A stretch of DNA of 64,000 nucleotides from Methanosarcina sp. (lineage in GTDB: Archaea; Halobacteriota; Methanosarcinia; Methanosarcinales; Methanosarcinaceae), in assembly GCA_003164755.1 (NCBI GenBank), contig PLUB01000059.1, positions 1-64,000 of the forward strand, read 5' to 3'. The notes beneath the pieces are model-generated. The model had not been told where the DNA came from. It saw only the letters and a program-made list of their open reading frames with translations, and did not search any database. The position numbers and the translations under genes are program-made. Shown here in pieces: positions 4,159 to 26,338 of the stretch; the stretch's first letter is position 1; the number at the start of each line of letters is the position of its first letter.

Positions 4159-4937
4159 TTCAAAATTTTCGTCTGAAGTTAATCTTTTAGCTTGAATATC
4201 TGCTTCTTTATGAACGATTAAAGAAAGATTTATTAGAGCATCAAGATTTTCCTTAATTATGGATTTAAATAATTTAAATCTATTATAACTGATTACATTT
4301 ATTATTAAATATAGATATGTATCACATAGAAGAGATTTGATATTGGACCCACGAGTTGCATCTATTGATTTTATCTTTTCATTATATGGAGTAGATTTTT
4401 ACGGAGTAGATACTGTATGCAATTTTTGAGAATAGGTCTTTGCTATTTTTGATAGTAGCATATGAGAATGTAAGTTATACTAGGTCCAAACATATTTAAT
4501 ATTTTAGAGTATAATATTAATCTATCCTTCTATTTTTATACTATATATCTCTAATTTTCTGGCTTTTGATCCAAAATAAACATGGAATTCCTCGAATAAC
4601 AGGCATAAATATTTCATATGAGTTATCTATATATACGGAACCAAGGTTGAAGTTGACGTTTACACCCCCCAGGCTGAAGACCTAGGAGTTTTACTCTTCG
4701 TTCTATAAAAAAAGAGATATGATTCAAAAGAAAAAGAAATGAACCAATAAGCCACTTAGCCTTCAGCTGAATAGTAGTTCACACATTCTGACTTACAAAC
4801 TTGGAATACTGAATAAGGTACAATAGACGTTAGTTCTTAAACTTTGATTTAATACATTTTAAAATGTAATGCTATTAATTTCTAAGTTCAACAGCATAAG
4901 TCCTATACATAAAACAGAATGCAGTCCGGTAATAACA
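4159..4937. other. AT-rich gap with a decayed gene 3' end
   Basis: No complete gene. The notable part is 4639-4709, which shares a reading frame with 8227-8296 (see the repeat entry). A short stretch GTACAATAGACGTT at about 4817 also occurs in the repeat at 2470. There is no obvious TATA box close to the next gene. Confidence 0.5.
4639..4709 (+). repeat. shared 22-codon gene end, copy 1
   Basis: In frame this reads TKVEVDVYTPQAEDLGVLLF then VL and a TAA stop. The copy at 8227-8296 reads TRVEVDAYIPWADDPVILRF then VL and TAA. The differences are mostly synonymous or conservative, so both look like the last codons of two related genes whose upstream parts have decayed. The family is not recognised. 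Confidence 0.5.
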
Positions 4938-5957
4938 ATGGCTTTTAAAGTTACCATTATAATTCTCAATTGGAATGGTTGGGAAGATACAATAGAATGT
5001 TTAGAATCTGTTTATCAGATCGAATATCCAAATTACGATGTTGTTGTTGTAGATAATGGTTCAAAAGATCAATCAGTTGAAAAAATAAAAACATATGCTT
5101 CTGGAAGTCTCAGAGTAGAATCAAACTTTTTAAAATATAACTCGGATAATAAACCTCTACACTTAATAGAATATTCTCAAGAAGAACTCAAATTTAATGA
5201 CAGCATAAAAAAAGATCTAGATAAGTTGCCACCAGAAAAAAAACTTATTCTAATTAAAAATAACCAGAATTATGGATTTGCTGAAGGAAACAACATCGCA
5301 ATAAGATACGCATTGGAAAAGCTGAAGCCAGATTATATTCTTTTGTTGAACAATGATACTGTTGTAGATCGCTGTTTCCTGGATGAATTAATTAAGATCG
5401 CGGAAAGTGATCCAAATATTGGGATCCTTGGACCCACTATTTTCGACTATAAGTATCCCTGTTGTATTCAGTCAGCAGGCTTAAGAATGCGATGGAATAA
5501 AGGAGATGCTATTAGCTTCGTATTTGAGGGTGATTTCTCCGTATCTGCGCAGAAAGTTGATGCTGTACTTGGTTGTACCCTACTTGCAAAAAGTGAGTTA
5601 TTGGACAAAATTGGCCTTTTAAATAAAAAATATTTTGCCTACTTTGAAGAGGTCGAATGGTGTGTGCGTGCACGAAGGGCATTTTATGAAATAGTATATG
5701 TTCCAAAGGGAAAAGTCTGGCATAAAGGAGGTGGCACCAGCAATAAGATCAAGGGATTTGCCCTGTATCAGTATACAAGAAATCAATTCTGGTTCATGAA
5801 ACAATATGCTTCATGTAAACAATATCGGTTATTCATTGCTTATTTCTTTGGATTCAAGTTATTCTCTTTTGTTGGATGGGCTCTGCTCCACAAAAATAAG
5901 ACGTTACTCATATATTTCCTCAAAGGAGTTAAAGATGGCCTATTGACCAGTGATTGA
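4938..5957 (+). CDS. GT2 family glycosyltransferase (rhamnosyltransferase-like)
   Basis: Intact inverting glycosyltransferase of about 339 residues with a GT-A fold, expected to add a sugar from a nucleotide-sugar donor to a surface polysaccharide or glycolipid on the cytoplasmic face of the membrane. Visible motifs are the N-terminal VTIIILNWNGWEDTIECLES, VVVDNGSKD, the DxD-equivalent LLLNNDT, and the acceptor/base segment FEEVEWCVRARR followed by KGGGTSN. This is the layout of the RfbF/WbbL-like GT2 subgroup. A C-terminal hydrophobic stretch (FFGFKLFSFVGWALL) may anchor it to the membrane. I chose the ATG at 4938 because the protein then begins at the conserved first strand; an ATG at 4869 would add 23 residues without family character. 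Neither start has a strong ribosome binding site. It converges with the GT4 gene downstream. Confidence 0.9.
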   Translation: MAFKVTIIILNWNGWEDTIECLESVYQIEYPNYDVVVVDNGSKDQSVEKIKTYASGSLRVESNFLKYNSDNKPLHLIEYSQEELKFNDSIKKDLDKLPPEKKLILIKNNQNYGFAEGNNIAIRYALEKLKPDYILLLNNDTVVDRCFLDELIKIAESDPNIGILGPTIFDYKYPCCIQSAGLRMRWNKGDAISFVFEGDFSVSAQKVDAVLGCTLLAKSELLDKIGLLNKKYFAYFEEVEWCVRARRAFYEIVYVPKGKVWHKGGGTSNKIKGFALYQYTRNQFWFMKQYASCKQYRLFIAYFFGFKLFSFVGWALLHKNKTLLIYFLKGVKDGLLTSD

Positions 5958-6015
5958 GAACTGTATCAAATTATAGTATTTGTTCGTGATGGTTGAAACT
6001 TCGATATTAGGATTT

Positions 6016-7086
6016 TTAGAGAGGATTTGAGTTTAGCTGCTCATATATTCTACGCATTTCTTCAGCTGATTTTTCCCAGTTAAATAACTGTGCTCTTTTG
6101 AGCCCTTTGCATATCAGGGCTTCTCTTAATTTTTCATCCATTAAAACATCATACATTGCGTTTATAAATGCATCGATGTCATGTGGATCTATTGTAATGG
6201 CGGAATCTGCTACTACCTCAGGCAATGATGTTACGTTGGAGGTTACTACCGGTGTTCCGCATGCCATAGCTTCCAGTGGAGGCATTCCGAACCCCTCATA
6301 TAACGAGGGATATACAAAAAGGTCTGCAGCGTTATAGTACTTTGTAATATCATTCTCGGAAACGTATCCTACAAATATTACCTCTTCCTGCAAACCCAGC
6401 TTTTCAATCAATTCAAGAAGCCCCTCACGTGCACCTGGGACTTGTGAGGTTCCGACTTTAAGGAGTCTTATCCCTGGAATTCTCCTTTTCAGCTGGTTAA
6501 CTGCTTCTAATAAAAAGGGGATATTCTTTCTCGGCTGTTCAGAGCCAACATATAAAATTACTTTGCTAGTATCCAGAATACCCAATTTCTTTATGATTTC
6601 TCGATCTCTTTTCACGTAATAGATATCATGGTCAATTGCTGGGTATACTATGCTAATTTTATTTTCTGGATATCCAGTATGTCGTATAATATCTTTTTTT
6701 GAGTATTCGGAAATTGTGATCATCCTATCTGCTTCCTTTAATCCCTTCATTTTCAGTCTTGAAGTAGGTAGTTGCTCATTATCATATACCCATGGGATAA
6801 TGTCAAAGCAGGTAACAATTGTCTTTTCTAATTTTACCAGTTTTAGAATGTAAGCCAGATCCTGACTCGTTATATGTTTTATGTTGTTTTTTCTTATTCT
6901 TCTATTTACAATAAACGGATATACCAGATATTTAACTGCGTCATTTATGATTCTTTTTTTTGAGATCATAGGATACTCTATAGGATTTAGTTTTATGTCT
7001 ATTATCCTTTCATGTATCTTCATCTGGTATTTTGACATCCCAAATATTTCATCAGTTTTTAGGCCGTTTATGTAATCAATTTCCAT
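6016..7086 (-). CDS. GT4 family glycosyltransferase
   Basis: Intact retaining glycosyltransferase of about 356 residues with a GT-B fold. The C-terminal domain carries YVGSEQPRKN (donor-domain start), VGYVSENDITKYYNAADLFV and the signature YEGFGMPPLEAMACGTPVV, with the two glutamates of the E-x7-E motif. The N-terminal half contains the acceptor-domain segment TCFDIIPWVYD and MITISEYSKKDI. It would transfer a sugar such as mannose or glucose in surface glycan assembly. The ATG at 7086 is preferred over the TTG at 7101 because GGAG sits about 9 bases before it. Upstream (7134-7166) lie two overlapping hairpins that may form a regulatory leader. It is convergent with the GT2 gene at 4938. Confidence 0.92.
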   Translation of the reverse strand: MEIDYINGLKTDEIFGMSKYQMKIHERIIDIKLNPIEYPMISKKRIINDAVKYLVYPFIVNRRIRKNNIKHITSQDLAYILKLVKLEKTIVTCFDIIPWVYDNEQLPTSRLKMKGLKEADRMITISEYSKKDIIRHTGYPENKISIVYPAIDHDIYYVKRDREIIKKLGILDTSKVILYVGSEQPRKNIPFLLEAVNQLKRRIPGIRLLKVGTSQVPGAREGLLELIEKLGLQEEVIFVGYVSENDITKYYNAADLFVYPSLYEGFGMPPLEAMACGTPVVTSNVTSLPEVVADSAITIDPHDIDAFINAMYDVLMDEKLREALICKGLKRAQLFNWEKSAEEMRRIYEQLNSNPL

Positions 7087-8426: not shown

Positions 8427-9913
8427 ATGTACAACATAACTGCCATTTTTTTTAATATCCTTAAAATAGATCCTATCCAACGCCAGAGTATAATATCATT
8501 ATTCTGGCAGATAGCATTCACAGGCATAGGTTTCCTGAGTACAATGTACTTCGCACATGCCGTAGGTGCTGCAATTCTCGGTGCATACTTTATATTTTAA
8601 TCATACAACGGCATTTTTGGTTTGATTACAGATGGAGGATTTGGTGGAGCCGCAGTCAAACGTATTAGTGAAGGAAAAGAACCTGATGCATATTTTAGTG
8701 CATCTATTATACTGCGGTTAGCATTCACGATACTTGTAGTACTCCTTTTGCTCTGGTTTAAAAATTATTTTGTAGAACTTAATTACTCAAATATGTTTGT
8801 TTGGCTGCTTCTTTCATTGTTGGTATCAATGATTGCGGTTGCCATCTCAAGCAGAGTTGCCGGAATGGGGAAAATCGGGATACACAGCACCTGTGTAGGC
8901 ATAAAAAATATCTCATGTGTCCTATTTCAGATCCCGGCAATATATCTCGGATATGAGACTGCAGGTATGGCTGGAGGTATGGTGGCTGGAGTACTAGTAG
9001 CGACGATCATTGAATTTCGTTTTTTTGATCTGCGTTTCGTACGTTTCAAATGGGTCCACATAAAAAGTTTATCGGCGTTTTAATTTTGGTTATTTTTAAC
9101 TACTAGTGGAATGCTGGTGTTTTCACAGGCAGATACTATTATCATTGGACATTTATTAGACATGGCCAATGTAGGCATTTACAGGATAACGCTCCAGTTC
9201 ACCATGGTTGCTTCATTTAGCACAAATGCACTACGTGACACGCTTTGGCTCCGTATCAGCAACTGGAGTAAAACTAATGAGATTGAGCTGGTGGAGGGAT
9301 CTCTGTCGCGTGCTATCACCTATTCATTGGTACTGGCAATTCCTGTATTTGTGGGTGGTGTGTTATTGGGCGATCGCCTGCTACTTCTATTCTATGGTGC
9401 AGACTTTGCTCGAGGTTATAAAACATTAATAATACTACTTGCTGTGCAGGTGATTAATATATTCCAGTTTTTGTTTACCATGTATCTGGATGCTCTGGAT
9501 AATCCAAAAGAATCATTTAAAATCACTGCCGTTGGTGTTGTAGCAAACATTGTGTTGAATATTATACTGATTCCAGTTATGGGTGTAAGTGGTGCAGCAA
9601 TCGCAATTCTAGCAACAATGACAATAAATTCTTTACTCGCAAGACGCACGTTATCAAAACTTATAAAAATACGAATTGAGCAGCATAGCCTGTTGAATAT
9701 TTTGATAGCTTCGACTGCAATGGGAGCACTGGTAGGTGGGTATCGTTTACTTATACCACTTTCCAATATATGGGTTACACTGGTGGCTGTTACTATCAGC
9801 GTGACGGCATATGGGGTGTTCTTGTGCTGAAACTTGATAGACAGATTTGTGATAATCTGCGAAAAATTGTAGAAACGATGGGTATGAGAGTTATATGGCC
9901 TGGATGGTTGTAA
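8427..9913 (+). pseudogene. Wzx-type polysaccharide flippase, broken
   Basis: Remains of an oligosaccharide flippase (MOP superfamily, PF01943) of about 495 codons that would move lipid-linked glycan units across the membrane. From the ATG at 8427 it reads MYNITAIFFNILKIDPIQRQ, then meets TAA at 8598 and another TAA at 9081, both in frame. Near 9825 a frameshift separates the last 28 codons, which end at WPGWL and TAA at 9911. Between lesions the frame is rich in transmembrane segments, such as the ILRLAFTILVVLLLLWF and FVGGVLLGDRLLLLFYGADF regions. Three lesions make it non-functional. An intact paralogue lies at 12178-13599 on the other strand, so the export function is not lost. Confidence 0.88.
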
Positions 9914-12177: not shown

Positions 12178-13599
12178 TCAAACTCCGATTTGTTTTAGTA
12201 GTTTCAAGTCCTCTTTTGAAAGAATGCCAGAAATAAACAACATTGTAAAATATATAACTATAGCAATGCAAATCAGCAAAGACAAATTAATATCCATTAA
12301 ATAAATTATAAATAACGCCATCACTAAATTTGATAGGAGTGTTTTTGTAATTAATTTAGAGAGAGCGAACTTGAAAATAAATTTAGAAATAAAATGATAA
12401 CATAATATCAAAGAGACTAATGAAGTAATTACGGTCGCCAAGGAAGAACCTATAAAACTGTATTTAGGAATAAGTATCAAATTGATCACTACGTTCAGTA
12501 GCATACAAATAATGTTGATCTTAAAAGCTAATTTTTGTCTATTTATCGATGCTAACATAATCCCGAGTAGAGAAGATAAAAATATAAAAGGAATCGTCCA
12601 AATAAGGATTTGGAGAGCAAGTATTGATTGAACAAACTCGCCTTTATAGATCAAAAGCATAATTTTATCAGCTAAAAGAGTTGTTCCTACTGCAATAGGA
12701 AAAGCTATAATTAATAAATATTTAAATCCTTTTTGGTAAACCATTTTTAAAGATTCGGGAGAAGAGATAAAAAACTTAGAAATTGCCGGATAAATTGATG
12801 TTGCAAAAATTCCAGGAATAAACATTAAAGCTTCGAGCAATTTGTAAGCTGCGCTATAATATCCTACAGCAATATTTCCCTTCATGATCGAGATCATGAT
12901 TATATCAACTTTAAAAGCAATGATATCTACAATTGCTGATAAAAAAAATGGCCAAGATTGTTTCATAATCGATTTACTGAAATCCAAATCTAGCTCAATA
13001 TTTGGCACAAAAAATTTCCAAGAGAAAACAAAATAAGAATATATTAGAACAATCAAACTAGCAAAAAGATATATGGAAGCGAAAGTTGTAACGTCATATT
13101 TATGGTATATTGCAAATAAAACAGCTGCAAAAATCAGAAAACTGTTAAAAATATTTCCAACCGACGCATACTCCATTTTTTCAAATGCTTGGAAAATAGA
13201 ATTAAAAATATTGCAAGCTGAGTTGAAGGCTGTAGACAAAGCAACAATATATATTACCTTAACTGTTTGCTCAGGATATTTAAAAATATTTATTGATAGA
13301 GCTATTAACCCAAATAAAACTATATACAAAATTGATTTTATTATTGCAATATTTCCAATATATTTTCTCGCTAATGAGTTATTCCTTGCAACTTCTCTAA
13401 CTGTAAATGTGCTTAAACCGAATTCAGGGAAGACTCCAAGTATTCCAGTAAAAGCTAGAGCAAAAGATAAAATTCCAAAGCCTTCTACACCTAGATACCT
13501 ACCAGTATACATAACATAAAAGAAACTAAAGAAGAAACTTACAATTTGTGCAAAAGTCAATACGCCAATGTTTTTTGCGATACTGCGCCCAGAATTCAT
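12178..13599 (-). CDS. Wzx-type oligosaccharide flippase
   Basis: Intact membrane protein of 473 residues, about 12-14 transmembrane helices, of the polysaccharide-synthase flippase group in the MOP superfamily. It would flip undecaprenyl- or dolichol-linked glycan units to the outer face. The N-terminal signature IAKNIGVLTFAQIVSFFF, then YTGRYLGVEGFGILSFALAF, is typical of archaeal members. The ATG at 13599 has GGAG 8 bases upstream. It forms a two-gene operon with the GT2 gene at 12175. A decayed paralogue lies at 8427. Confidence 0.93.
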   Translation of the reverse strand: MNSGRSIAKNIGVLTFAQIVSFFFSFFYVMYTGRYLGVEGFGILSFALAFTGILGVFPEFGLSTFTVREVARNNSLARKYIGNIAIIKSILYIVLFGLIALSINIFKYPEQTVKVIYIVALSTAFNSACNIFNSIFQAFEKMEYASVGNIFNSFLIFAAVLFAIYHKYDVTTFASIYLFASLIVLIYSYFVFSWKFFVPNIELDLDFSKSIMKQSWPFFLSAIVDIIAFKVDIIMISIMKGNIAVGYYSAAYKLLEALMFIPGIFATSIYPAISKFFISSPESLKMVYQKGFKYLLIIAFPIAVGTTLLADKIMLLIYKGEFVQSILALQILIWTIPFIFLSSLLGIMLASINRQKLAFKINIICMLLNVVINLILIPKYSFIGSSLATVITSLVSLILCYHFISKFIFKFALSKLITKTLLSNLVMALFIIYLMDINLSLLICIAIVIYFTMLFISGILSKEDLKLLKQIGV

Positions 13600-14211
13600 A
13601 CTATCTCCAAACTAGATGAATTTAAACAGTAATACTCCCATATTGGTATCCAATGTTCCACATATATGCACAGATGTAAAATTGATTTGCCTATTCCACT
13701 ATTAAATATTAAAGCTAAAACGATTTTTAAGCTACTTATACATTGAGATAATTGATAGCATTTTTGTGTACATCTGTGGAAAATCGGTTGTATTACGTTA
13801 TTTATGAATTTTCGAAATCAAGGTTTTTTGAATCTCAGTTTATTGAAATCCTCAGGAAAGCATTACCTACAGATTAAGAATTATGAGATGAACTACTTTT
13901 TGAAGATTTTACTTTTCGATATACTTGGTGACTAACATCCCTGCCCTCGATAAACCTTTAAAAATCTCGATATCGCTCTAAAACTCTCAAGTACTCCATA
14001 TCCATAAACCCTGCTTCTAGTATCCCCACAATTTTTGCCTGCCTGAAAGGAGCTAACTGGTATTGAAGCCACCGAATAACTCCATATGAAGATCTGGATT
14101 CATTGTCCTGAACGAAGTGCACTCTTTTCCAACTAAATCTTTCAGATTCTTATTATTATAGCTTTCAAAAAAGAAGTAGTATCAGCCATCAGTGAACACC
14201 TTTGGATAGAG
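13600..14211. other. gap with unrecognised coding remnant
   Basis: On the minus strand between about 14190 and 13895 a frame reads NESRSSYGVIRWLQYQLAPF, then RQAKIVGILEAGFMDMEYL, a stop or shift, and further coding-like sequence. It looks like a decayed protein gene of unknown family. The rest is AT-rich. Confidence 0.35.
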
Positions 14212-14453
14212 AATTAAGAGAGCTTTTATTTAGATTTAATCAGGTTCATTTGTTTTATCTCTCAAGCTAATTGATTGGAGTTCCAAAATAGGTTATTTTT
14301 GAATAATCGTACTTCATAATTCTTTGATTAATAATCACATCATACTTATCAACTTTACGCTTACAGTCATTTTTTGGATAATCACTCTTGTTTTTATTTG
14401 GATTATGAGACCTTTTTTATGATAATTATACAGTATAGCTTTCTCAAATAATA

Positions 14454-15528
14454 TAGTCGTCCCTAAATCTAATGCAATATTATTATATTTTAAAATAGTA
14501 GATTATTTAACTCGTGAGTTTGGATGTTTTTACTACGCATTTATCACTAAGGCAACCATTAATTTTTACAACAATAACAAGCAAATTAGACTCCAAGCGC
14601 TATTGTTGGTAAAAAAATGGTTTAAGCCCATCTAAAGTTGCAGAAGTTTATCAGTGTATTGCCCAACTATCTACCGTTGGGTAAAGAGTACTGAAAAAGA
14701 AGGTTTAATCCGCCTTAAATGTAAGCATTGTATAGGAGTAAAATCCTTTTAACAACAGAACAACTTTTTGAGTTAAAAAAGCACTTTCAAAGCTAATACC
14801 AACAGATGATTCCTATTATATGGTTGGTAAACAAAAAAAGCAATTCAATTTGCCAAAGAGAAAATTGAAATATCTTATTCCGAATCAAGAATTATACAAA
14901 TTATTAAAGATATAATATTAAAGATATAAGGTTTAATAAAATAACATATAGACCTAGATCAAAAGGCGAAATGAGGGGCTTACAACTAAATTAATAGCCA
15001 AAGTTCAAAAAAATCCTAATCCTAATATTTATTCGTCACCCATGATGAAAGCGGTTTTTGTGTAGATTCAAATAGATCCAGGTGTTGGGCTATCAAAGGC
15101 TCAATAACTATTAAATTTACAAGTCGTTCAAAAGCTAAAATCAATTTTTGAGGATTCTACACTGAAAATGGAGAGTTTTATGGATATGATTTGATTTAGA
15201 AACCACATAGAATGCAGACTCTTTCCTAAAATCAGTACTCTATTTGAAGAGAGATATAGTAGCAAAGATATTCCTTCTACTAGACAGAACTAGTTGGCAT
15301 AAATCAAAAAAGGCGGAGAAATTTTATCAAAACAATGAGCAAGGGTTGCAAAAAGTATATTTTCCTCCAACTACTCCAGATAGGAACCCAACAGAGTATT
15401 GTTGGAAAACATTACGAAAAAGTTAACGTCAATAAAATCATTTAGAAATATAAAGAAAGAACTTGATAGCTTTTGGTAGGAGCATCTATTTGCATATAAA
15501 ATGTTGAATTATTTTAAATCGTAACAAT
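14454..15528 (+). mobile_element. IS630-family element, degenerate
   Basis: The borders follow from comparison with the uninterrupted arm B near 19785. The insertion lies at a TATA sequence, as expected for IS630/Tc1-like elements, which duplicate TA. The element is about 1.07 kb, typical for the family. The terminal inverted repeats are too decayed to define. Confidence 0.7.
14566..15487 (+). pseudogene. IS630 transposase, broken
   Basis: Pieces of an IS630 transposase can be followed through several frames. They are a helix-turn-helix region (STVYRWVK), SESRIIQIIKD, RPRSKGE, the DDE-domain start THDESGFCVDSNRSRCWAIKG, and TSRSKAKINF. The last open piece, 15244-15423, has LLLDRTSWHKSKKAEKF and FPPTTPDRNPTEYCWK, the second Asp and final Glu region. 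Many stops and shifts mean it is inactive. Confidence 0.75.
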
Positions 15529-15971
15529 ATAGAAGCAAAAATCATTCTGAAAATTTACTGAAAAAATTCTTTTTAAGAGCAGAAATATAGAAAATTGTAG
15601 TAAACTCATTAATTATACTTTGAAAAATCAATTGTAGTTTAGAATGTAAATATTTACGCTTAAGGATCATTAAGAATTAACTTAGGCACATTTTTAACAC
15701 TACCATTTGGATCCGACTGTATTTAAAAAGTATAAAAGTGTTATTTATGCTATATATTGGGAATTATGTTGGAAAATCGCTACCGTTGGTATTCGAAGTT
15801 GTGAATAAAATTGATTAACCGGTGACAAAAAAGCTATAATTACGTTAACCTGCCAAATATAGGATAAAAGATCAGTGGTTTGATTAATTTTAGGGTTAAC
15901 TATACAAATAGTTACAGAGAAATACGATCATGCGTGATAAATAAACATAATTTGGATTGGTTTGTTGGAGA

Positions 15972-17276
15972 TTATATTTTATCATCTAGTAAGAGCTCTA
16001 CCATACTGCAGTCAAATGTAGGTATACCGTACCTTTTAGAAACTTCTTTTCTTTCAGAGAAACTATCATCAATGAAAATGGAGTTTTCTGGATCTATGTA
16101 ATCTGCTTTAGATTCCCCTTTATTAAGTAAAAGAATCTCATCGAATAGGCTTTCTAATCTCCATTTTTTAAGATATGTAGATAAATCATTTACAGTTTTA
16201 GTTATCAAGACTATCTTGCATGTTTTATTAACACATTGGTATAAAAATTGAACTAGCTTTGTATTCACTTTATTTTTTAGGATTAAGGTATCATCAAGAT
16301 CCACATACACTTTATCAAAGGTTATATTATGCCTATATCGATTTATGAGAGCCCTGTCAATCTCTATATCAAAATTGTTTTGAGAAATTTCGATTTTTAC
16401 TAGTTCACTTTCATAAATACTTAACAGAGGGAAATTAATCCCCTGCACTCTATGAGTTGCCATCGTTCCACTAATCCTAGGAGCAATTTCAAGCAATTTC
16501 AATACTCCGTTTTTATCTTCTTTGACCTGAAAAAACCAGGCTCCTCTAAGATCTATACATTTAGAGATTATGGTAGCATATTCTCTGAAAGTCTGGTTTA
16601 AGACAGCATCAACAGGCTTACTATGCATGGAAATTCCGGCCCTTGTTCTAATTCGTTCCCTTCCTCCACAGAACAGTAACCCCCTCTTTAAATCACTAAA
16701 GCAGTCAATGGTATATTCTTTTCCAGGCAGATATTCAAGGACAATGAGATCTGAATTAGCTTTTATTAAAGCTTTCAGGGTTTCTTGATCTGGTACGATA
16801 TTAGCCCCCTGAGACCCCTGGCCTACATCGGGTTTTACGAATAAGGGGAATTTGATCATCTCAAACCCGATGTCTGATAGATCCTGAGAAATATATAACT
16901 CAGGAACAGGTAGTAGCTCCCTAAATGTCTTATATGTTTTTGATTTGGATCGACATATTCTGCAAGTAGCTACTGGAGAAGAGACGATTCTTGCATTAAG
17001 TTCGTTTGAGTTCACAGCTAAAGCCAGGACTACATCATCATGACAAGGAATTACGAAATCAATATTATTTTTGGAAATTACCTCATTTAATGGCTCAATC
17101 CAATTTTTTGAATGAACATCAGGCACAATAAAATGATTTGCAAAAACATAAGGTGCATGATTTGAGATGGCACTGCTAGCCGAAAATAAAGCTATGTCCT
17201 TGCAATCTCTTAAAGAGCTCCAGACTTCCATTGCAATCTCAGTTCCTCCAGGAAAAATTAGTACATTTTTAATCAC
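15972..17276 (-). CDS. ATP-grasp ligase fused to a HAD-type phosphatase domain
   Basis: Intact protein of 434 residues. Residues about 1-110 form a pre-ATP-grasp domain (NVLIFPGGTEIAMEVWSSLR). Residues 115-300 are an ATP-grasp domain with the flexible loop FVKPDVGQGSQGANIV, LEYLPGKEYTIDCFSD and the metal site LLEIAPRISGTMA, where the usual Asn of E-x-N-P-R is Ala. Residues about 321-434 are a HAD domain with motif I VDLDDTLI, motif II near LITKT and motif IV FIDDSFSERKEV. The ATP-grasp part should join a carboxylate to an amine or thiol; the HAD part may remove a phosphate. The substrate is unknown, but the setting suggests amino-acid or amide decoration of a surface sugar. The start is GTG at 17276, overlapping the stop of a decayed upstream frame, so it was once translationally coupled. 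A short broken copy is at 20115-20262. Confidence 0.85.
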   Translation of the reverse strand: MIKNVLIFPGGTEIAMEVWSSLRDCKDIALFSASSAISNHAPYVFANHFIVPDVHSKNWIEPLNEVISKNNIDFVIPCHDDVVLALAVNSNELNARIVSSPVATCRICRSKSKTYKTFRELLPVPELYISQDLSDIGFEMIKFPLFVKPDVGQGSQGANIVPDQETLKALIKANSDLIVLEYLPGKEYTIDCFSDLKRGLLFCGGRERIRTRAGISMHSKPVDAVLNQTFREYATIISKCIDLRGAWFFQVKEDKNGVLKLLEIAPRISGTMATHRVQGINFPLLSIYESELVKIEISQNNFDIEIDRALINRYRHNITFDKVYVDLDDTLILKNKVNTKLVQFLYQCVNKTCKIVLITKTVNDLSTYLKKWRLESLFDEILLLNKGESKADYIDPENSIFIDDSFSERKEVSKRYGIPTFDCSMVELLLDDKI

Positions 17277-17480
17277 GATTTAACTCCCTAAAAGATCCAG
17301 ATATTTTTACATAATTCTGATAATTATAATGCTTACAAGCTAGAATATACTGCTTTTGTTTGTGCATTCTATAAGTAGGTTCTTTGTCTAGAACTTTCAT
17401 ATAAGCACATACCTTTTCAATTAGGATACCGTAATCTAGATATACAGTTTGAATCTCTCCAAAATTATCCGTAAAAACTT
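17271..17480 (-). pseudogene. C-terminal remnant of an unrecognised gene
   Basis: An open frame runs from about 17480 to TAA at 17273-17271, ending GSFRELNRD. It contains VCAYMKVLDKEPTYRMHKQK and overlaps the GTG start of the ATP-grasp gene by a few bases. It joins directly to the broken DegT gene upstream, so a deletion probably fused the front of one gene to the back of another. Confidence 0.45.
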
Positions 17481-17484
17481 TGAA

Positions 17485-17859
17485 TCAAATATATAGAACT
17501 TGTTTTCTCGGTCGTCCCCTTCTCAACGTCTGGTGGGTCGATATTAAATATATAGTGAGATATATTTGTAAAAATAGGTTTAGATATTTTCAGACTATTG
17601 CATTTGTAATTGCTGCAAAGGTAAAATAAGTTGTTATAACTTTTCTACTGATTTTAAGTGTTTTAAGCGCAACCTGAAGAACCAACATACCATTAGAAAC
17701 GAATAATATATTTTTGGCTCCCAAATATTCTTCTAAATTCTGTTCAAATAACCGTACAAGTTCACCATTTTTATCAGTCATTTAATATCCATATTTCCCC
17801 GAGATATTTGATATAATCTTCCAAAGGTAGAAGATCTAATTTAGTGACATTTATCATTT
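17485..17859 (-). pseudogene. DegT/DnrJ aminotransferase, 5' half only, broken
   Basis: The beginning, MINVTKLDLLPLEDYIKYLG, matches the start of the intact paralogue at 21135-22244. A shift near 17785 is followed by NGELVRLFEQNLEEYLGAKN and NGMLVLQVALKTLKISRKVI. A further shift leads to NIDPPDVEKGTTEKTSS, matching NIDPVDVEKKITENTSA in the paralogue. It then stops at about residue 130, before the PLP lysine. It would have made an amino sugar, but it is dead. Confidence 0.75.
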
Positions 17860-17882: not shown

Positions 17883-18683
17883 TCATTTTGATATCATAAT
17901 CAAATTTTCTCTGGGATTTAAGCCATACTTATAAGACTCTTCCTCAATAAAAAGATCGTTATGATAAACGATATTTAACTTAAAGCCCGAAGATTTCAAT
18001 TTTTCAAAAATGCCTAATCCATAAATTCGAACATGATCTTCTTGACCAAAATATGCTAATCTGTCCTTTTCATAGTTTATGGATTCATCTTCATAAGAAT
18101 CAAACATTTCTTCAGAATAAGGCGTCTGCAAGATTACCTTTCCCCCTTTTTTTAAAACTCTGTATAATTCTTTCATTGCCTTAATATCATCTGGGACATG
18201 TTCTAAAACATGATTGCAAATAATGAAATCAAAATACTCGTTCATAAATTGTAAATTTGTAATATCCACTTTTTGTAATAATTTATTTTTGGGATCTGGG
18301 GATAGATCTCCAACTATATATTTATCAGTTTTTAACACCAGGATATCTTGTAGATGTTCTTCAGGAGCTATATGAAGTATGCTTTTGTTTTCCAATTCCT
18401 TCCATATATCTAGTTTATCAAAATAGAGAATTAGATGACGTAATCTATCATGTGATCCACAGTAATAACATCCAAAATTTTGAAGATTACTCCCTATAAT
18501 ATTATATTTTTGGACTCTTTGAGAAACAAAGCCTTTCCATGGGATAAAAGAGTCAAAATGATGCCCACAAACGTTGCATGTATGTTTGGAGCCAATAATA
18601 TATTTAATATTATTAAATCTTAAATTTATGAGATTAACTGTTAAGTTTAAATAACGATTGGATTTTAACTTGAAAAATTTCAT
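17883..18683 (-). CDS. SAM-dependent methyltransferase with zinc ribbon
   Basis: Intact protein of 266 residues. The N-terminal part holds two CxxC pairs (CNVCGHHF and CYYCGSHDRLRHL) that form a zinc ribbon, common in this group of class I methyltransferases. Residues about 105-230 are the Rossmann-fold domain: LHIAPEEHLQD (motif I region), YIVGDLSPD (acidic residue binding the SAM ribose), FDFIICNHVLEHVPDD (motif IV of Methyltransf_11) and LKKGGKVILQTP. It probably methylates a sugar or lipid-linked intermediate of the glycan. The ATG at 18683 is preferred to the TTG at 18695. It lies upstream of the broken DegT and the ATP-grasp gene on one strand, probably a former operon. Confidence 0.88.
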   Translation of the reverse strand: MKFFKLKSNRYLNLTVNLINLRFNNIKYIIGSKHTCNVCGHHFDSFIPWKGFVSQRVQKYNIIGSNLQNFGCYYCGSHDRLRHLILYFDKLDIWKELENKSILHIAPEEHLQDILVLKTDKYIVGDLSPDPKNKLLQKVDITNLQFMNEYFDFIICNHVLEHVPDDIKAMKELYRVLKKGGKVILQTPYSEEMFDSYEDESINYEKDRLAYFGQEDHVRIYGLGIFEKLKSSGFKLNIVYHNDLFIEEESYKYGLNPRENLIMISK

Positions 18684-19530
18684 AAATAAATTCAACTACC
18701 TAGATTAATATTCTTCTCATTAAACTTCCCCGAATTTAATTTTCTAACGGTAAAAATCTGAATTAGGTACAATTCATTAAAATATTTTGCAACTGGTTTA
18801 AATTTCAGTTCAAAATAGGATTTTCACCCACATTTTATTTTCACACTTGTCATAAAAATAACAGCTGTTAGAATCACCATGTGGGGAAGGTCACAATTTA
18901 TTGATAACTTCTCTCCAAATTAATTTTTTATCAAGCTTTCGCCCCCTAAAATAGTTAAAGTATTTAATACAATTTATATTGCCTGCATGTCAGATGATAC
19001 AGCTCCAAAATCCAGTACTGAACGTAAAATTGAAAATCACTCGATTTTGTAATTGGTACAATCCTTTTGAATGTATTTCTTTGTTGAAGCCTTTGGATCT
19101 TAATATTGAGTTTAAACAAAGAACATTTTTCTCCTACAAATTCAGCGTTTCAGTCCAGAAATCCAAAAATTGCTAGATTTTGGACCAAACTCGTTCAGGT
19201 TCAAATGCAATATAATTTATATCCATCATCTGGAAGAAGTTTTATTCTTTTCCGATTGAGTCTTCCAGCTTCATTTTACCCTAATTTGATAGAAAAATGC
19301 ATATTATAATGTATAAATTGGCTTCATGATTCTGGTTGCCCATACAATTTAAAGTATTATCTTTTGTTTTTTGATTTTTGCTATCTTCCATTTTTCTGGT
19401 AGATTCTATGCCGATAAAATGCGTTTTTTTAAGAGAATACTGTATTAATTAGTAGGATAGGTCAAATTAGGATTTTATTGCAACTTTCAAAGAAATAGCC
19501 TCGGAAATTAGTGAAAACATTTAGTCAGAT
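18684..19530. other. gap with unrecognised remnants
   Basis: Plus-strand frames of 60-67 codons at 18979-19309 do not match a family I know and are probably debris. No RNA gene or strong signal is visible. Confidence 0.4.
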
Positions 19531-20110
19531 AATTAAGAGATCTTTTATTTTAGTTTTAATTAGGTTCATTCGTTTTGTCTCGTTAGGTTCGATTTCTCAA
19601 GCTGATTAATTGGGGTTCAAAAACAGGTTATTTTTGAATAATCAAACTTCAAAAATCTTTGAGAAATAATCAAATCATCAAGTACTAATTTTATGCTTAT
19701 AGTTTGTTTTTTGATAGTTACTCTCATATTTATGTAGATGTAAGAAATTTTTCATGATAATTATATAATATAGCTTTCTCAAAGAACTATAAAGACAAAA
19801 AAACTTTTCGAAAATGTACTGAAAAATATCTGTTTTAAGGGCAAAATATAGAAAATTGTAGTAAACTCATTAATTAATTATACTTTAAAAATCAATTATA
19901 GTTTAGAATGTAAATATTTACGCTTAAGGGTTGTTATGACGTAACTTAGGCACATTTTTACACTGTACTCAACAGTTTTCACAAACTTACTAATCGATTA
20001 AATTCCAAAATAAATATGTGTGACCCATTTGGATTCGGTTAAGATTTAAAAGGTCAAAAAGTGTTATTTTTTAGGTTATATATTTAGGAATTATGTTGGA
20101 AAACCACTGT
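19531..20110. repeat. segmental duplication, arm B (empty IS site)
   Basis: Uninterrupted counterpart of arm A. The sequence around 19775-19800 (TATAGCTTTCTCAAAGAACT then ATAAAG) is the empty insertion site of the IS630 element seen in arm A. The similarity continues to TTATGTTGGAAAA at about 20093-20105 and then moves into a copy of the ATP-grasp gene. Confidence 0.8.
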
Positions 20111-20114
20111 TATT

Positions 20115-20262
20115 TTCTTTCACCTGGAAAAATCAGTCTCCTCTAAGATCTATACATTTAGAGATTATGTTAACATGATCCCGAAACTCTGGTTAAAGAC
20201 AGCATCTACAGGCTTGATATGCATTGAAATTCCGGCTCTTGTTCGTATTCGTTCCGGAATCA
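20115..20262 (-). pseudogene. ATP-grasp fragment, duplicate of part of 15972-17276
   Basis: This sequence closely matches bases 16525-16665 inside the ATP-grasp gene, with landmarks CTCCTCTAAGATCTATACAT and CATTTAGAGATTATG and small indels. Only about 45 codons survive and the frame is broken. Together with arm B it shows that a block reaching from the left of the IS element into the ATP-grasp gene was duplicated and then reduced. Confidence 0.8.
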
Positions 20263-21134: not shown

Positions 21135-22244
21135 CTACCATTCTGACCTCTTAATTGTTTTTTTGATTATATCAATGATTACATCAGTTGTTGCCATTTC
21201 CAAATCGGCATAGAGTGGAAGACATAATACACAGTTAGCGATATAAGATGCAACATTTAAATGATACTTATCAACTAGATTTTTATCCTGAAAATAAGCT
21301 GAACTTACTGTTAAAGGGAAAAAATATTTCCGGGCTTTTATTCCATTTTGGATTAGATTTGAGTAAACCTTATCCCTTTGACCGAGGCTTTCAAAAATCA
21401 CAGGCATATAAATATAATTATACCTGGACGATATAAGTTTTTGAAATTGAATGTTTAAACCAGACAAACGTTCTTTATAATGAAAATATAACTCCTCACG
21501 TTGCTTTATTTTAGTATCAACATGCTTTAAGTTACATAGGCCCATAACAGCTTGAAATTCATTCATTTTAGCGTTTGTGCCTGCAAGCTCTACTTCTTCC
21601 TCCGATTTGATCCCATGATTTATCAAGAGCCGGATTTTGTCAGATACATCAGTCTTTTTTGCAACAATAGCTCCTCCTTCTATTGTGTGCATTATCTTTG
21701 TTGCATGGAAGCTGAGACAGGACACATCGCCATAATTCAGTAAAGATTCACTTTTGTATTGGACTCCAAAAGAATGAGCTGCATCATAAATTAATTTCAG
21801 GTCATACTTATATGCAATTTTCTGTAGTTCTTCCACATAACATGGATTTCCATAACAGTGAACGGCCAAGATTGCACTTGTATTTTCGGTGATCTTCTTT
21901 TCAACATCTACTGGATCGATGTTCCATGTTTGGGGATCAATATCTGCAAAAACTGGTGTAAGACCTGCCCAGATTAATACATTTGTTGTAGCTGGAAATG
22001 TGAATGGAGTAGTGATTACTTCTCCTGTAATCTCAAGAGCTTTCAATGCAACATTGAGAGCAAGTGTGCCATTTGTCACGGCTACGATATTCTGAACCCC
22101 TAAATACCCTTGTAATTTATTTTCGAAGGTTTGAACAAATTTGCCGTTATTGGTCAACCACTTACTTTCCCATATTTCTTCAAGGTATTCTATGTAATCC
22201 CCTATGGGAGGCATATCTACCCTAGTTACGTTGATTATGTTCAT
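21135..22244 (-). CDS. DegT/DnrJ/EryC1/StrS aminotransferase
   Basis: Intact PLP enzyme of 369 residues that transfers an amino group, usually from glutamate, to a nucleotide-linked keto sugar, giving an amino sugar for surface glycans. Visible features are the N-terminal EIWESKWLTNNGKFVQTFE, VTNGTLALNVALKAL, TPFTFPATTNVLIWAGLTPV, the PLP-contacting YDAAHSFGV, and the Schiff-base lysine in SFHATKIMHTIEGGAIV. GTNAKMNEFQAVMGLCNL follows. It resembles the VioA/WecE-like group of dTDP-4-amino-sugar transaminases; the exact sugar cannot be told. The ATG at 22244 fits the family start. The broken copy at 17485-17859 is its paralogue. Confidence 0.93.
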   Translation of the reverse strand: MNIINVTRVDMPPIGDYIEYLEEIWESKWLTNNGKFVQTFENKLQGYLGVQNIVAVTNGTLALNVALKALEITGEVITTPFTFPATTNVLIWAGLTPVFADIDPQTWNIDPVDVEKKITENTSAILAVHCYGNPCYVEELQKIAYKYDLKLIYDAAHSFGVQYKSESLLNYGDVSCLSFHATKIMHTIEGGAIVAKKTDVSDKIRLLINHGIKSEEEVELAGTNAKMNEFQAVMGLCNLKHVDTKIKQREELYFHYKERLSGLNIQFQKLISSRYNYIYMPVIFESLGQRDKVYSNLIQNGIKARKYFFPLTVSSAYFQDKNLVDKYHLNVASYIANCVLCLPLYADLEMATTDVIIDIIKKTIKRSEW

Positions 22245-23894: not shown

Positions 23895-25189
23895 TTATTT
23901 ACCCCCATATTTTTTGACAACCATTTTAACAATCATTGTGGATAAATTAAACAATTTTCACTATTAGTCTACGAACCAACTTTTTTAAAATTCATGCCTA
24001 AATTTATTCCAATAAGCATGTTTTTTCATATTTACACAAAAATACACATCTACAAGCACATATGCAAGAACAGATATGTTTACTAGGTTAATATATGCTA
24101 AAATATATAAATACAATAGAATTTATTTTCCTTAATATAAATGTATTCTGTAACAATTATAACGATTTAGAAGATTATACTGCCACATATCTAAGAATAC
24201 TGAATTACTATATGTAAGCACATAAAATAAGTAAATACAATCCTATTTTTAATAGCTATTTGGTTCATATAGTTACAATTCTATTCGTATAGGATTTTCA
24301 AATCCAAGTCTGTCTACTTTTACCATACCGAAACAATCTGAGGCACTGAAAAATATTGACCTTTGAGAACCTTCAACTCTACGACCTTGTGGAGATGTCC
24401 TGATTATAAGATACAGCTGGGGTGAGCTTAGCAAACGCATAAGTTTTGTCACTAAAAACTATACATGAAAATGAATGGTAGTCAACTACTTTATATCTTA
24501 CGTGAGATAGTTGACTAAATCATTTGTGTAAATTCTAAACAAGAACTGAAAAAAGAATTGGGGATTTTATCTTAGAGGCATATATTAAGAAAATTAAATC
24601 AAAATGAAAGCTAAAGTCATGATTGTGATCTACTATATTCAGATTATTCAATTGGATCTAATGCAAGAGAATCCACTTGACTTAAATATGCTTCATCACA
24701 AGTTGTTACTTAATACCAACATTTTCTTTATTTAACTTTGCAACAGCCATATAGATATTGTTCTTTACTTATCTTCGCTCGACCATATAATAATGATAAT
24801 GAAGTTTAATGCATGTATCCGAAGTTGATATTTGATTGTACTTAGGCCTTACGCACTTGAGGTATAAAATCAAGTACCATAAATACGGGGTTTAAATATA
24901 CGCTTTAGATAGTTAAAGGGTTAAACCTATTGATATTTCGATTCAACTTTTTAAGTCCAATATAATTTAGGTAGAATAAATCTTCTACGATAAATAATTA
25001 TAAAAACTGAACAATAAAAACTAAAGAGCAATCACTTTTTACCCTGAACTTATACTCGCTGCCCAGATAACCCCTTTTACGGAGCAAAACTTTATTAGCC
25101 GTACAGAAAAAATAATTCCAATTTAATAGTTTGTGTTTTTGATAAATTTTTGAAAAATTCAAAATTTATGATTATGGGAAGTGAAATTC
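23895..25189. other. long AT-rich gap before the alcohol dehydrogenase
   Basis: It contains the dispersed repeat at 24841-24921. Around 24290-24480 the plus strand reads IRIGFSNPSLSTFTIPKQSE and CGDVLIIRYSWGELSKRI with a stop between, an unrecognised coding remnant. No clear TATA box can be singled out for the next gene. Confidence 0.4.
24841..24921. repeat. dispersed repeat, copy 2
   Basis: Similar to 2441-2521 over most of its length: CTTACGCACTTGAGGTATAAAAT here against CTTATGCACTGAGGTGTAAAAT there, and CGCTTTAGATAGTTAAAGG against TGCTTTAGGCAGTTGAAGG. Confidence 0.45.
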
Positions 25190-26338
25190 ATGATATATAC
25201 ATATCTGAACCCGAGAGTAGCACTCATGGGAGCTGGCTGCGTAAAAAGAATCGGCAAACAGGCAAAAGAACTTGGAGGCAATAAAGCTTTGATTGTTTCA
25301 GGCAAAAGTAGGCATGGAGAAGAGCTAGCAGAAGATATACGGAAAATCATTGAAAATTCAGGGCTGAAAGCAGCTATCTTTGCGGGAGCAGAACCGAACC
25401 CCACTGATAATTCGATTATGGAAGGGGCAAAAGTCTACAAAAAAGAAAAATGTGATATGATCGTTGCTGTTGGAGGTGGAAGCCCAATGGACTGTGCAAA
25501 GGCAATTGGCATTGTGGTTAAGAATGGGAGGAGAATTAATGATTACGAAGGCGTTGGGAAAGTTACAAAAGGAATTCCACCTCTTATTACGGTAAACACA
25601 ACAGCTGGTACTGGAAGCGAGATGACGAGGGTTACAATTATTACGGATACAAAGAGACATATCAAGATGGCAATTGTTGACTCTCACATCACTCCTGACG
25701 TAGCAGTCAACGATCCCGAGCTGATGGTAAGTATGCCACCTGAACTCACAGCTGCAACCGGAATGGATGCACTTACTCATGCAGTTGAAGCTTATGTTTC
25801 CACCATGGCTACCCCAACCACTGATGCAGCTGCCATCAAGGCAATCGAGCTTATTTCGAAATACTTGCGGAAAGCCGTTGTTAATGGAGAGGACGTAAGA
25901 ACAAGAGACATGATGGCACATGCTGAATATCTAGCAGGCATTGCTTTCAACAATGCAAGTCTTGGCTATGTACATTCAATGGCTCATCAACTTGGCGGAT
26001 TTTATAACCTTCCACACGGAATCTGCAACGCAATACTCCTGCCCTATGTGGAGATGTACAACAAGCAAGTCTGTTTTGAGCGTTTTGCAAATATCGCAAA
26101 GTCAATGGGAGAAAATATTGACGGTTTAAGTCCGGAAGAAGCTGCAGATAAAGCCATCGGTGCCATCAAAAAGCTTGCAGATGAGATTGGAATTCCCTCT
26201 GGCTTAAAGGAACTCGGAGCTAGAGAAGAAGACTTTGAACTCCTGGCTGAAAATGCCATGAAGGATCACTGCCGCCTAACAAATCCCAGAAATTTCTCAA
26301 AAGAAGATATCATTGAGATTTACAGGAAAGCCATGTAA
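25190..26338 (+). CDS. iron-containing alcohol dehydrogenase
   Basis: Intact group III alcohol dehydrogenase of 382 residues, NAD(P)H-linked, interconverting alcohols and aldehydes in the cytoplasm. The nucleotide-binding part has VAVGGGSPMDCAKAIG and VNTTAGTGSEMTRVTII. The metal ligands are the Asp in VAVNDPELM and the three His in ALTHAVEAY, GYVHSMAHQLGG and NLPHG. Family members are 380-390 residues, so the length is normal. The ATG at 25190 is preferred over the GTG at 25181 because GGGAAGTGA lies in front of it as ribosome binding site. No partner gene is on the same strand; in a methanogen it could serve alcohol oxidation or detoxify aldehydes (inference). Confidence 0.96.
   Translation: MIYTYLNPRVALMGAGCVKRIGKQAKELGGNKALIVSGKSRHGEELAEDIRKIIENSGLKAAIFAGAEPNPTDNSIMEGAKVYKKEKCDMIVAVGGGSPMDCAKAIGIVVKNGRRINDYEGVGKVTKGIPPLITVNTTAGTGSEMTRVTIITDTKRHIKMAIVDSHITPDVAVNDPELMVSMPPELTAATGMDALTHAVEAYVSTMATPTTDAAAIKAIELISKYLRKAVVNGEDVRTRDMMAHAEYLAGIAFNNASLGYVHSMAHQLGGFYNLPHGICNAILLPYVEMYNKQVCFERFANIAKSMGENIDGLSPEEAADKAIGAIKKLADEIGIPSGLKELGAREEDFELLAENAMKDHCRLTNPRNFSKEDIIEIYRKAM

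Follow-up and report, generated by a model that had tools for sequence, protein, structure and literature searches.

A fused ATP-grasp ligase and HAD phosphatase in a decayed Methanosarcina cassette, with a possible role in amino-sugar acylation

Introduction

The amino sugars of bacterial surface glycans can be acylated with amino acids or small acids, by enzymes of which many are still without assignment. A widespread protein family in which an ATP-dependent ligase is joined to a phosphatase, and which travels with a sugar aminotransferase, represents a testable candidate whose genomic company predicts the acceptor. One gene of this type lies on a contig of Methanosarcina sp. (PLUB01000059.1, assembly GCA_003164755.1), within the 64,000 nucleotides analysed here (positions 1 to 64,000 of the forward strand, hereafter the window). 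What would a ligase and a phosphatase accomplish within a single polypeptide, and is the reaction likely to take place in this archaeon?

Results

The gene encodes an ATP-grasp ligase joined to a small HAD domain

The gene occupies positions 15972-17276 of the minus strand and constitutes an open frame of 434 amino acids, running from a GTG start at 17276 to a stop at 15972 with no internal stop codon. A GGGAG at 17284-17288 (minus strand), read in the sequence, is its likely ribosome-binding site. The structural model of the whole protein has a mean pLDDT of 94.4. Residue conservation was determined from an alignment of 45 proteins (the window protein and those of 44 out of 45 fetched loci carrying relatives); L044, whose contig breaks off within the gene, was excluded, while L031 and L047 were included though cut at the start. 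Judging from Pfam matches to ATP-grasp families, a confidently modelled HAD domain and the retention of both sets of catalytic residues, the product is an ATP-grasp ligase joined to a small HAD phosphatase domain, in agreement with the first-pass annotation.

The ATP-grasp part (residues 1-303; 16368-17276, minus strand) exceeds the curated Pfam cut-offs of two families, PF02655 (45.1 bits versus 23.2) and PF15632 (63.3 bits versus 29.1), the latter being the profile originally proposed as a check. PF15632 also matches 45/45 members at an E-value of 0.001. The ATP-binding lysine K148 and the residues E263 and R267 are each kept in 45/45 aligned proteins. Within the motif E263-x-A-P-R267 (16476-16490, minus strand), position 265 is alanine in 31 of the 45 fusion proteins, serine in nine, glycine in two, and glutamate, aspartate or cysteine in one each; asparagine is found in 0/45. 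Because asparagine is present at this position in the unfused relatives L049 and L050 and in the solved protein 2pn1, all of which have E-x-N-P-R, the form E-x-A-P-R marks the fusion family. The substitution that had been singled out at first reading is therefore real, but it is not odd for this gene. PurK, a working ATP-grasp enzyme, also contains E-x-A-P-R.

Along with the PRK12767 NCBIfam models, 2pn1 from Exiguobacterium, recorded as 'carbamoylphosphate synthase large subunit', is the closest known match to the ATP-grasp half; among solved structures it ranks first both in sequence (E = 2.1e-15) and in fold (E = 1.7e-20). This protein differs from the fusion in matching the ATP-grasp half alone and in having E-x-N-P-R, and its record provides a name without a tested function. 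All 21 NCBIfam matches of the fusion protein lie below their own cut-offs. Taken together, the name-only record of 2pn1 and the sub-cut-off matches do not bear out the possibility, raised with the original proposal, that the relatives are ordinary enzymes whose role is already assigned. The 3-methylornithine-lysine ligase PylC is an ATP-grasp enzyme that forms an amide bond and has a similar fold (4ffl, E = 5.9e-18), but it leaves the HAD half of the fusion unmatched. PylC was rejected as the identity of the fusion, since its model TIGR03909 reached 42.9 bits versus an equivalog cut-off of 248.3; no protein of this Methanosarcina genome (92.5% complete) scored over the PylC family cut-off.

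The HAD part together with a linker hairpin (residues 304-434; 15975-16367, minus strand) is supported by a model of residues 303-434 and its fold matches. Modelled alone, these 132 residues gave a pLDDT of 92.8. The top Foldseek match of the isolated model was Mg-dependent phosphatase 1 (MDP-1, 1u7o; E = 5.5e-5), and VIA matched it to many HADs, with a best Z of 13.2 and an rmsd of 2.4 over 112 aligned residues, providing the fold support on which the idea of a fusion depended. The catalytic residues are conserved throughout the alignment: both aspartates of D326-L-D328-D-T (16287-16301, minus strand) are kept in 45/45 proteins, T/S359 and K390 in 44/45 each, and D403 and D404 of the D403-D404 motif (16065-16070, minus strand) in 43/45 and 39/45, respectively. 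The list of helices and strands in the model suggests that the 132-residue part has no space for a cap domain.

Searches of Pfam and NCBIfam with the window protein recognised no HAD family, a PDB profile search with the HAD part returned 0 matches, and no HAD subfamily was named by any of the three. Weak matches were obtained for other members, namely Hydrolase_3 in Pfam (4/45) and, at E-values up to 0.1 in NCBIfam, Cof-type (17/45), phosphoglycolate phosphatase (8/45), HAD-IIIC (7/45) and FkbH (1/45). A possible kinship of the HAD part with the HAD-IIIC/FkbH type is only weakly supported by the last two counts.

The fusion is spread across bacterial phyla and was probably acquired by the archaeon

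The 45 fetched loci come from many bacterial phyla and include, by title, two archaeal ones, from Pacearchaeota (L031) and Candidatus Methanoflexus (L044). Several of the loci are closely related, such that the counts given here are not independent, and the scan employed six peptides spanning the whole query, which under-samples unfused relatives. The closest relative of the window protein, at 61% identity, was found in a Nitrospirae bin. Among 392 genomes sampled from the phylum of the archaeon, matches at an E-value of 1e-30 were confined to its own genome, indicating that the fusion gene was probably acquired, with bacteria the most likely donor. A contaminant contig was considered and rejected, as a nearby window gene (25181-26338) has a 92% identical counterpart in a congener and finds matches in 16/20 genomes (the source genome counted), and mcrA is present in the genome.

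Mobile elements were also searched. No phage record matched the fusion at 1e-10. Plasmid matches at 1e-30 comprised two Cupriavidus metallidurans megaplasmid records with 36% identity, in which the fusion is unannotated; on the one megaplasmid examined, a DegT match of 43% lies approximately 3.3 kb before the fusion. Four loci on viral contigs contained a fusion match, three of them sharing the same one, and no DegT match at 1e-20 was detected near these loci in the stretches covered. A comparison of E. coli genomes with the Aeromonas homologue, made at the DNA level only, gave no match, and the fusion could thus not be connected with any structurally known E. coli O-antigen. Judged by title and abstract opening, no paper among the matches listed deals with an ATP-grasp-HAD fusion; the subscription literature may describe the family.

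Within the family of the archaeon, matches at an E-value of 1e-20 were found in 3/111 genomes, these being its own and two whose matches, at 28-29% identity, are to ATP-grasp sequence and stop short of the HAD part. The segment 1483-3059 of L050 has both activities on separate genes, an unfused ATP-grasp gene and, 2 nt behind it, a gene for a HAD_2 phosphatase, and in L049 the unfused gene adjoins one for a PIG-L de-N-acetylase, a type of enzyme that liberates an amino group. These contexts fit a ligase that requires an amine, in one case working with a phosphatase.

The fusion keeps company with sugar aminotransferases

To describe the neighbourhood of the fusion, ORFs of at least 90 aa in the 45 loci were clustered by BLAST. 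A DegT sugar aminotransferase is present in 37/45 loci, and in 17/45 the two genes are immediate neighbours on one strand, less than 60 nt apart (DegT preceding in seven, following in ten), consistent with the association that had been suggested for the window. In the same loci, the same closeness to DegT was observed for 17/67 glycosyltransferases and for 24/313 other genes. Eight of the 45 loci have no DegT in the fetched stretch (L005, L012, L016, L028, L031, L034, L037 and L047); L031 and L047 begin inside the fusion gene, and in L028 the place of DegT is taken by NeuB, together with a 2-epimerase and a CBS/NTP-transferase. The expectation that the fusion would also sit regularly with a zinc-ribbon methyltransferase was not borne out: matches to the window methyltransferase occur in 7/45 loci at 24-33% identity and fall within its residues 101-239, leaving the cysteine-rich start unmatched.

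RmlA and RmlB (counted at >40% and >37% identity, respectively, to those of L011) occur together in 15/45 loci, all 15 of which contain DegT and 13 of which are without RmlC/RmlD in the fetched stretch. The clearest arrangement is that of L035, where RmlB, RmlA, DegT and the fusion are consecutive and both Rml proteins score above their cut-offs. Four DegTs were tested, including that of the window, and for each the best NCBIfam model was DesI, a dTDP-4-keto-6-deoxyglucose aminotransferase. DesI is thus the closest model for the partner DegTs, yet all four score below its equivalog cut-off of 650 bits; the window DegT reaches 273.7 bits with TIGR04427, the best of the models listed. In a mirror-tree comparison of 31 fusion/DegT pairs (30 loci and the window), the Spearman coefficient of the distances was 0.06, and 528 of 2000 permutations gave a value as high. 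Since the two sets of distances are uncorrelated, the partnership appears to be loose.

The Methanosarcina locus is a decayed, repeated cassette

In the window, the first-pass annotation had placed the fusion beside a DegT aminotransferase and a methyltransferase. Both genes are present on the minus strand, the methyltransferase with its cysteine-rich start at 17883-18695 (PF08241, 52 bits) and an intact DegT of 369 aa at 21135-22244 (PF01041, 327 bits), but the immediate upstream partner of the fusion is a second, broken DegT at about 17474-17857 (minus strand), of which the first third only is left as pieces in different frames matching DegT residues 3-131. A remnant of a second fusion copy lies at 20103-20254 (minus strand), where residues 207-257 can be recognised in two frames, at 88% and 68%. 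A [DegT + fusion] cassette has thus left two traces in the window, collinear with each other, one with an intact DegT and a remnant fusion, the other with a broken DegT and an intact fusion. The repetition extends to downstream blocks (15537-15776 with 19798-20103, and 14153-14455 with 19475-19791), some of which are dispersed elements present elsewhere in the genus. At the DNA level the DegT copies are 65% alike and the fusion pieces 86%, which leaves a simple recent duplication unproven. The locus is a decayed and repeated [DegT + fusion] cassette.

Several other features accompany the two copies. An element of approximately 1.1 kb at 14448-15541 (minus strand), possibly a transposase remnant, has many copies in this genome and in congeners, mostly 66-80% identical; it separates blocks between which the other copy has just 6 nt (19798/19791), so that this other copy looks like an empty site. 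The non-coding segments 15704-15830 and 13656-13790, of about 105-135 nt, match many places in many congeners and are dispersed intergenic repeats. By translation, flippase-like genes of the polysaccharide type are found at 12178-13599 (minus strand), where the gene is intact, and at 8622-9830 (plus strand), where it is split into ORFs at 8622-9083 and 9111-9830.

Elsewhere in this draft genome of 124 contigs, an rmlB-rmlD-rmlA run occupies 4587-6545 of locus L065, on contig C101. The second half of rmlB alone is matched there, the RmlA match consists of two pieces in different frames, and a further RmlB piece reaches the end of contig C10. The state of the dTDP pathway in this genome is uncertain.

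Discussion

With DegT in most loci and RmlA/RmlB in a third of them, the best reading of the context is a ligase that places an acid on an amino sugar, as the first-pass annotation had suggested. Our preferred explanation, to which we assign a probability of roughly 0.4, is a bifunctional enzyme of surface-polysaccharide synthesis whose ligase acylates the amine of a 4-amino-4,6-dideoxyhexose and whose HAD domain dephosphorylates either the donor or the product. In such a pathway RmlA and then RmlB would provide dTDP-4-keto-6-deoxyglucose, and the partner DegT would add an amine to give the 4-amino-4,6-dideoxyhexose. The ATP-grasp domain would convert a small carboxylic acid into an activated acyl phosphate and pass the acyl group on to the free amine of this sugar, generating an amide; a phosphate present on the donor acid or on the amide product would then be cleaved off by the HAD domain. 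3-phosphoglycerate and O-phosphoserine would be examples of such acids. The components of this proposal differ in strength: the amide step on an amino sugar is supported by the context, the sugar amine as acceptor, the 4-position and the order of steps are what we infer from it, and both which acid is used and that a phosphate is removed are guesses. The acid, and present activity in the archaeon, are unproven. The phosphate step is proposed because the two domains are fused, because the HAD site is intact, and because a parallel has been published for C. jejuni; a phosphorylated acid as substrate would account for the fused phosphatase.

Two published systems offer what we regard as partial parallels. 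In C. jejuni, the capsule amidoligase Cj1438C couples glucuronic acid with serinol phosphate or ethanolamine phosphate, and the phosphatase Cj1435, called a HAD phosphatase in a title cited there, takes the phosphate off, according to the available portions of the reports (PMC11800379, PMC13276843). Like the proposed enzyme, this pair (and likewise HS19.11C with HS19.09) combines an ATP-grasp enzyme forming an amide in a surface polysaccharide with a HAD phosphatase acting on the product. In contrast to the fusion, the two activities reside on separate polypeptides, the ATP-grasp enzyme is TupA-like, the glucuronic acid carboxylate is joined to a phosphorylated amine, and those portions mention no dTDP-aminosugar partner. 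The second parallel is the type B flagellin locus of C. difficile, where, in the sections available of the reports, the terminal Fuc3N bears a taurinyl-Ala-Gly peptide on its amino group and a mutant in the ATP-grasp gene CDR20291_0245 is without the terminal peptidyl-Fuc3N (PMC5207246, PMC5207245). Here too an ATP-grasp gene accompanies an FdtB-like aminotransferase (CDR20291_0247), with rml genes upstream, but the sugar is a 3-amino sugar as opposed to the 4-amino sugar inferred here, and the same sections mention no HAD domain. The authors named CDR20291_0244 as the candidate for acylating the sugar amine and placed CDR20291_0245 in the making of the peptide, leaving its precise role open in the text available (PMC5207246, PMC5207245).

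That CDR20291_0244 was named for amine acylation counts against our preferred explanation, as do several of the results above: the eight loci that are without DegT, the loose partnership and the sub-cut-off DesI scores, the glycosyltransferases that likewise often lie beside DegT, and, for this genome, the occurrence of RmlA in two frames and of RmlB in partial pieces. The part of the neighbourhood that was searched for families yielded no recognisable gene for a donor of the phosphorylated-acid kind. The examples of 3-phosphoglycerate and O-phosphoserine are not favoured by a review of marine polysaccharides (PMC3210612), the available text of which contains 'alanyl' eight times and 'glyceroyl' and 'seryl' 0 times.

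A plain amino or hydroxy acid, carrying no phosphate, is a serious possibility as the group that the ligase attaches to the amino sugar, although we would not favour it. The HAD domain would then serve another step, acting on a sugar phosphate or a nucleotide sugar precursor, or would limit the pathway, and the fusion would merely keep pathway enzymes together. Consistent with this, N-acyl groups known from a fusion-bearing genus are plain amino acids: polysaccharides of Pseudoalteromonas, which accounts for two of the 45 fusion loci, contain 4-(N-acetyl-D-alanyl)amino-4,6-dideoxy-D-glucose according to the available text of the review (PMC3210612). For the preferred explanation, the resemblance of this sugar to the proposed product is only suggestive, being a match at the level of the genus. 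Likewise, the glycine, alanine and taurine on the terminal sugar of C. difficile are described without phosphate in the available sections (PMC5207246, PMC5207245), and the HAD matches of the members are weak and scattered over several NCBIfam families, indicating no substrate. However, the invariant HAD aspartates in a protein fused to the ligase, and the HAD gene that lies 2 nt behind the unfused relative in L050, fit coupled steps better.

For the archaeon itself, it is somewhat unlikely that the fusion is simply being carried along in a dying locus, still whole because it is recent but without a substrate or present function; such a reading would leave those for bacteria unaffected. The broken copies of both the fusion and DegT, the RmlA match in two frames, the pieces of RmlB and the split flippase-like gene (8622-9830) all point in this direction. 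Against it, one full open copy each of the fusion and of DegT persists with its catalytic residues, and in a draft of 124 contigs, with an RmlB piece at a contig end, the pathway may be intact but unassembled.

It is improbable that the fusion follows the C. jejuni geometry, with the ligase amidating the carboxylate of a uronic acid with a phosphorylated amine, the HAD domain dephosphorylating the product and DegT making the amine or acting on another sugar of the polymer, for although this chemistry has been shown for Cj1438C/Cj1435 and HS19.11C in the available portions of the reports (PMC11800379, PMC13276843), the C. jejuni ligase is labelled there as TupA-like as opposed to the PF15632/PRK12767 type, the tested DegTs resemble sugar 4-aminotransferases, and the cluster exemplified by a UDP-sugar dehydrogenase-like protein (labelled by eye from its sequence) is present in only four loci.

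The preferred explanation, acylation of a 4-amino-4,6-dideoxyhexose, also has a more specific form, in which both steps fall to a single protein: it attaches a phosphorylated acid at the amine of a dTDP-derived 4-amino sugar and afterwards cleaves off the phosphate, the ligase domain serving the open HAD site. We consider this form unlikely. If true, N-acylated amino sugars would be made by one enzyme in a 'ligate then dephosphorylate' order, a route distributed over many bacterial phyla that has also reached a methanogen. The archaeon for its part carries a decoration cassette of bacterial type, rare within the phylum and by now partly decayed.

A further arrangement was observed in two loci from different bacterial phyla, where a gene of the radical SAM/SPASM type, an assignment based on a family search with the L016 copy alone, directly precedes the fusion (L016, 1377-2453; L045, 4872-5984). 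In both, this gene is itself preceded by a methyltransferase-like gene.
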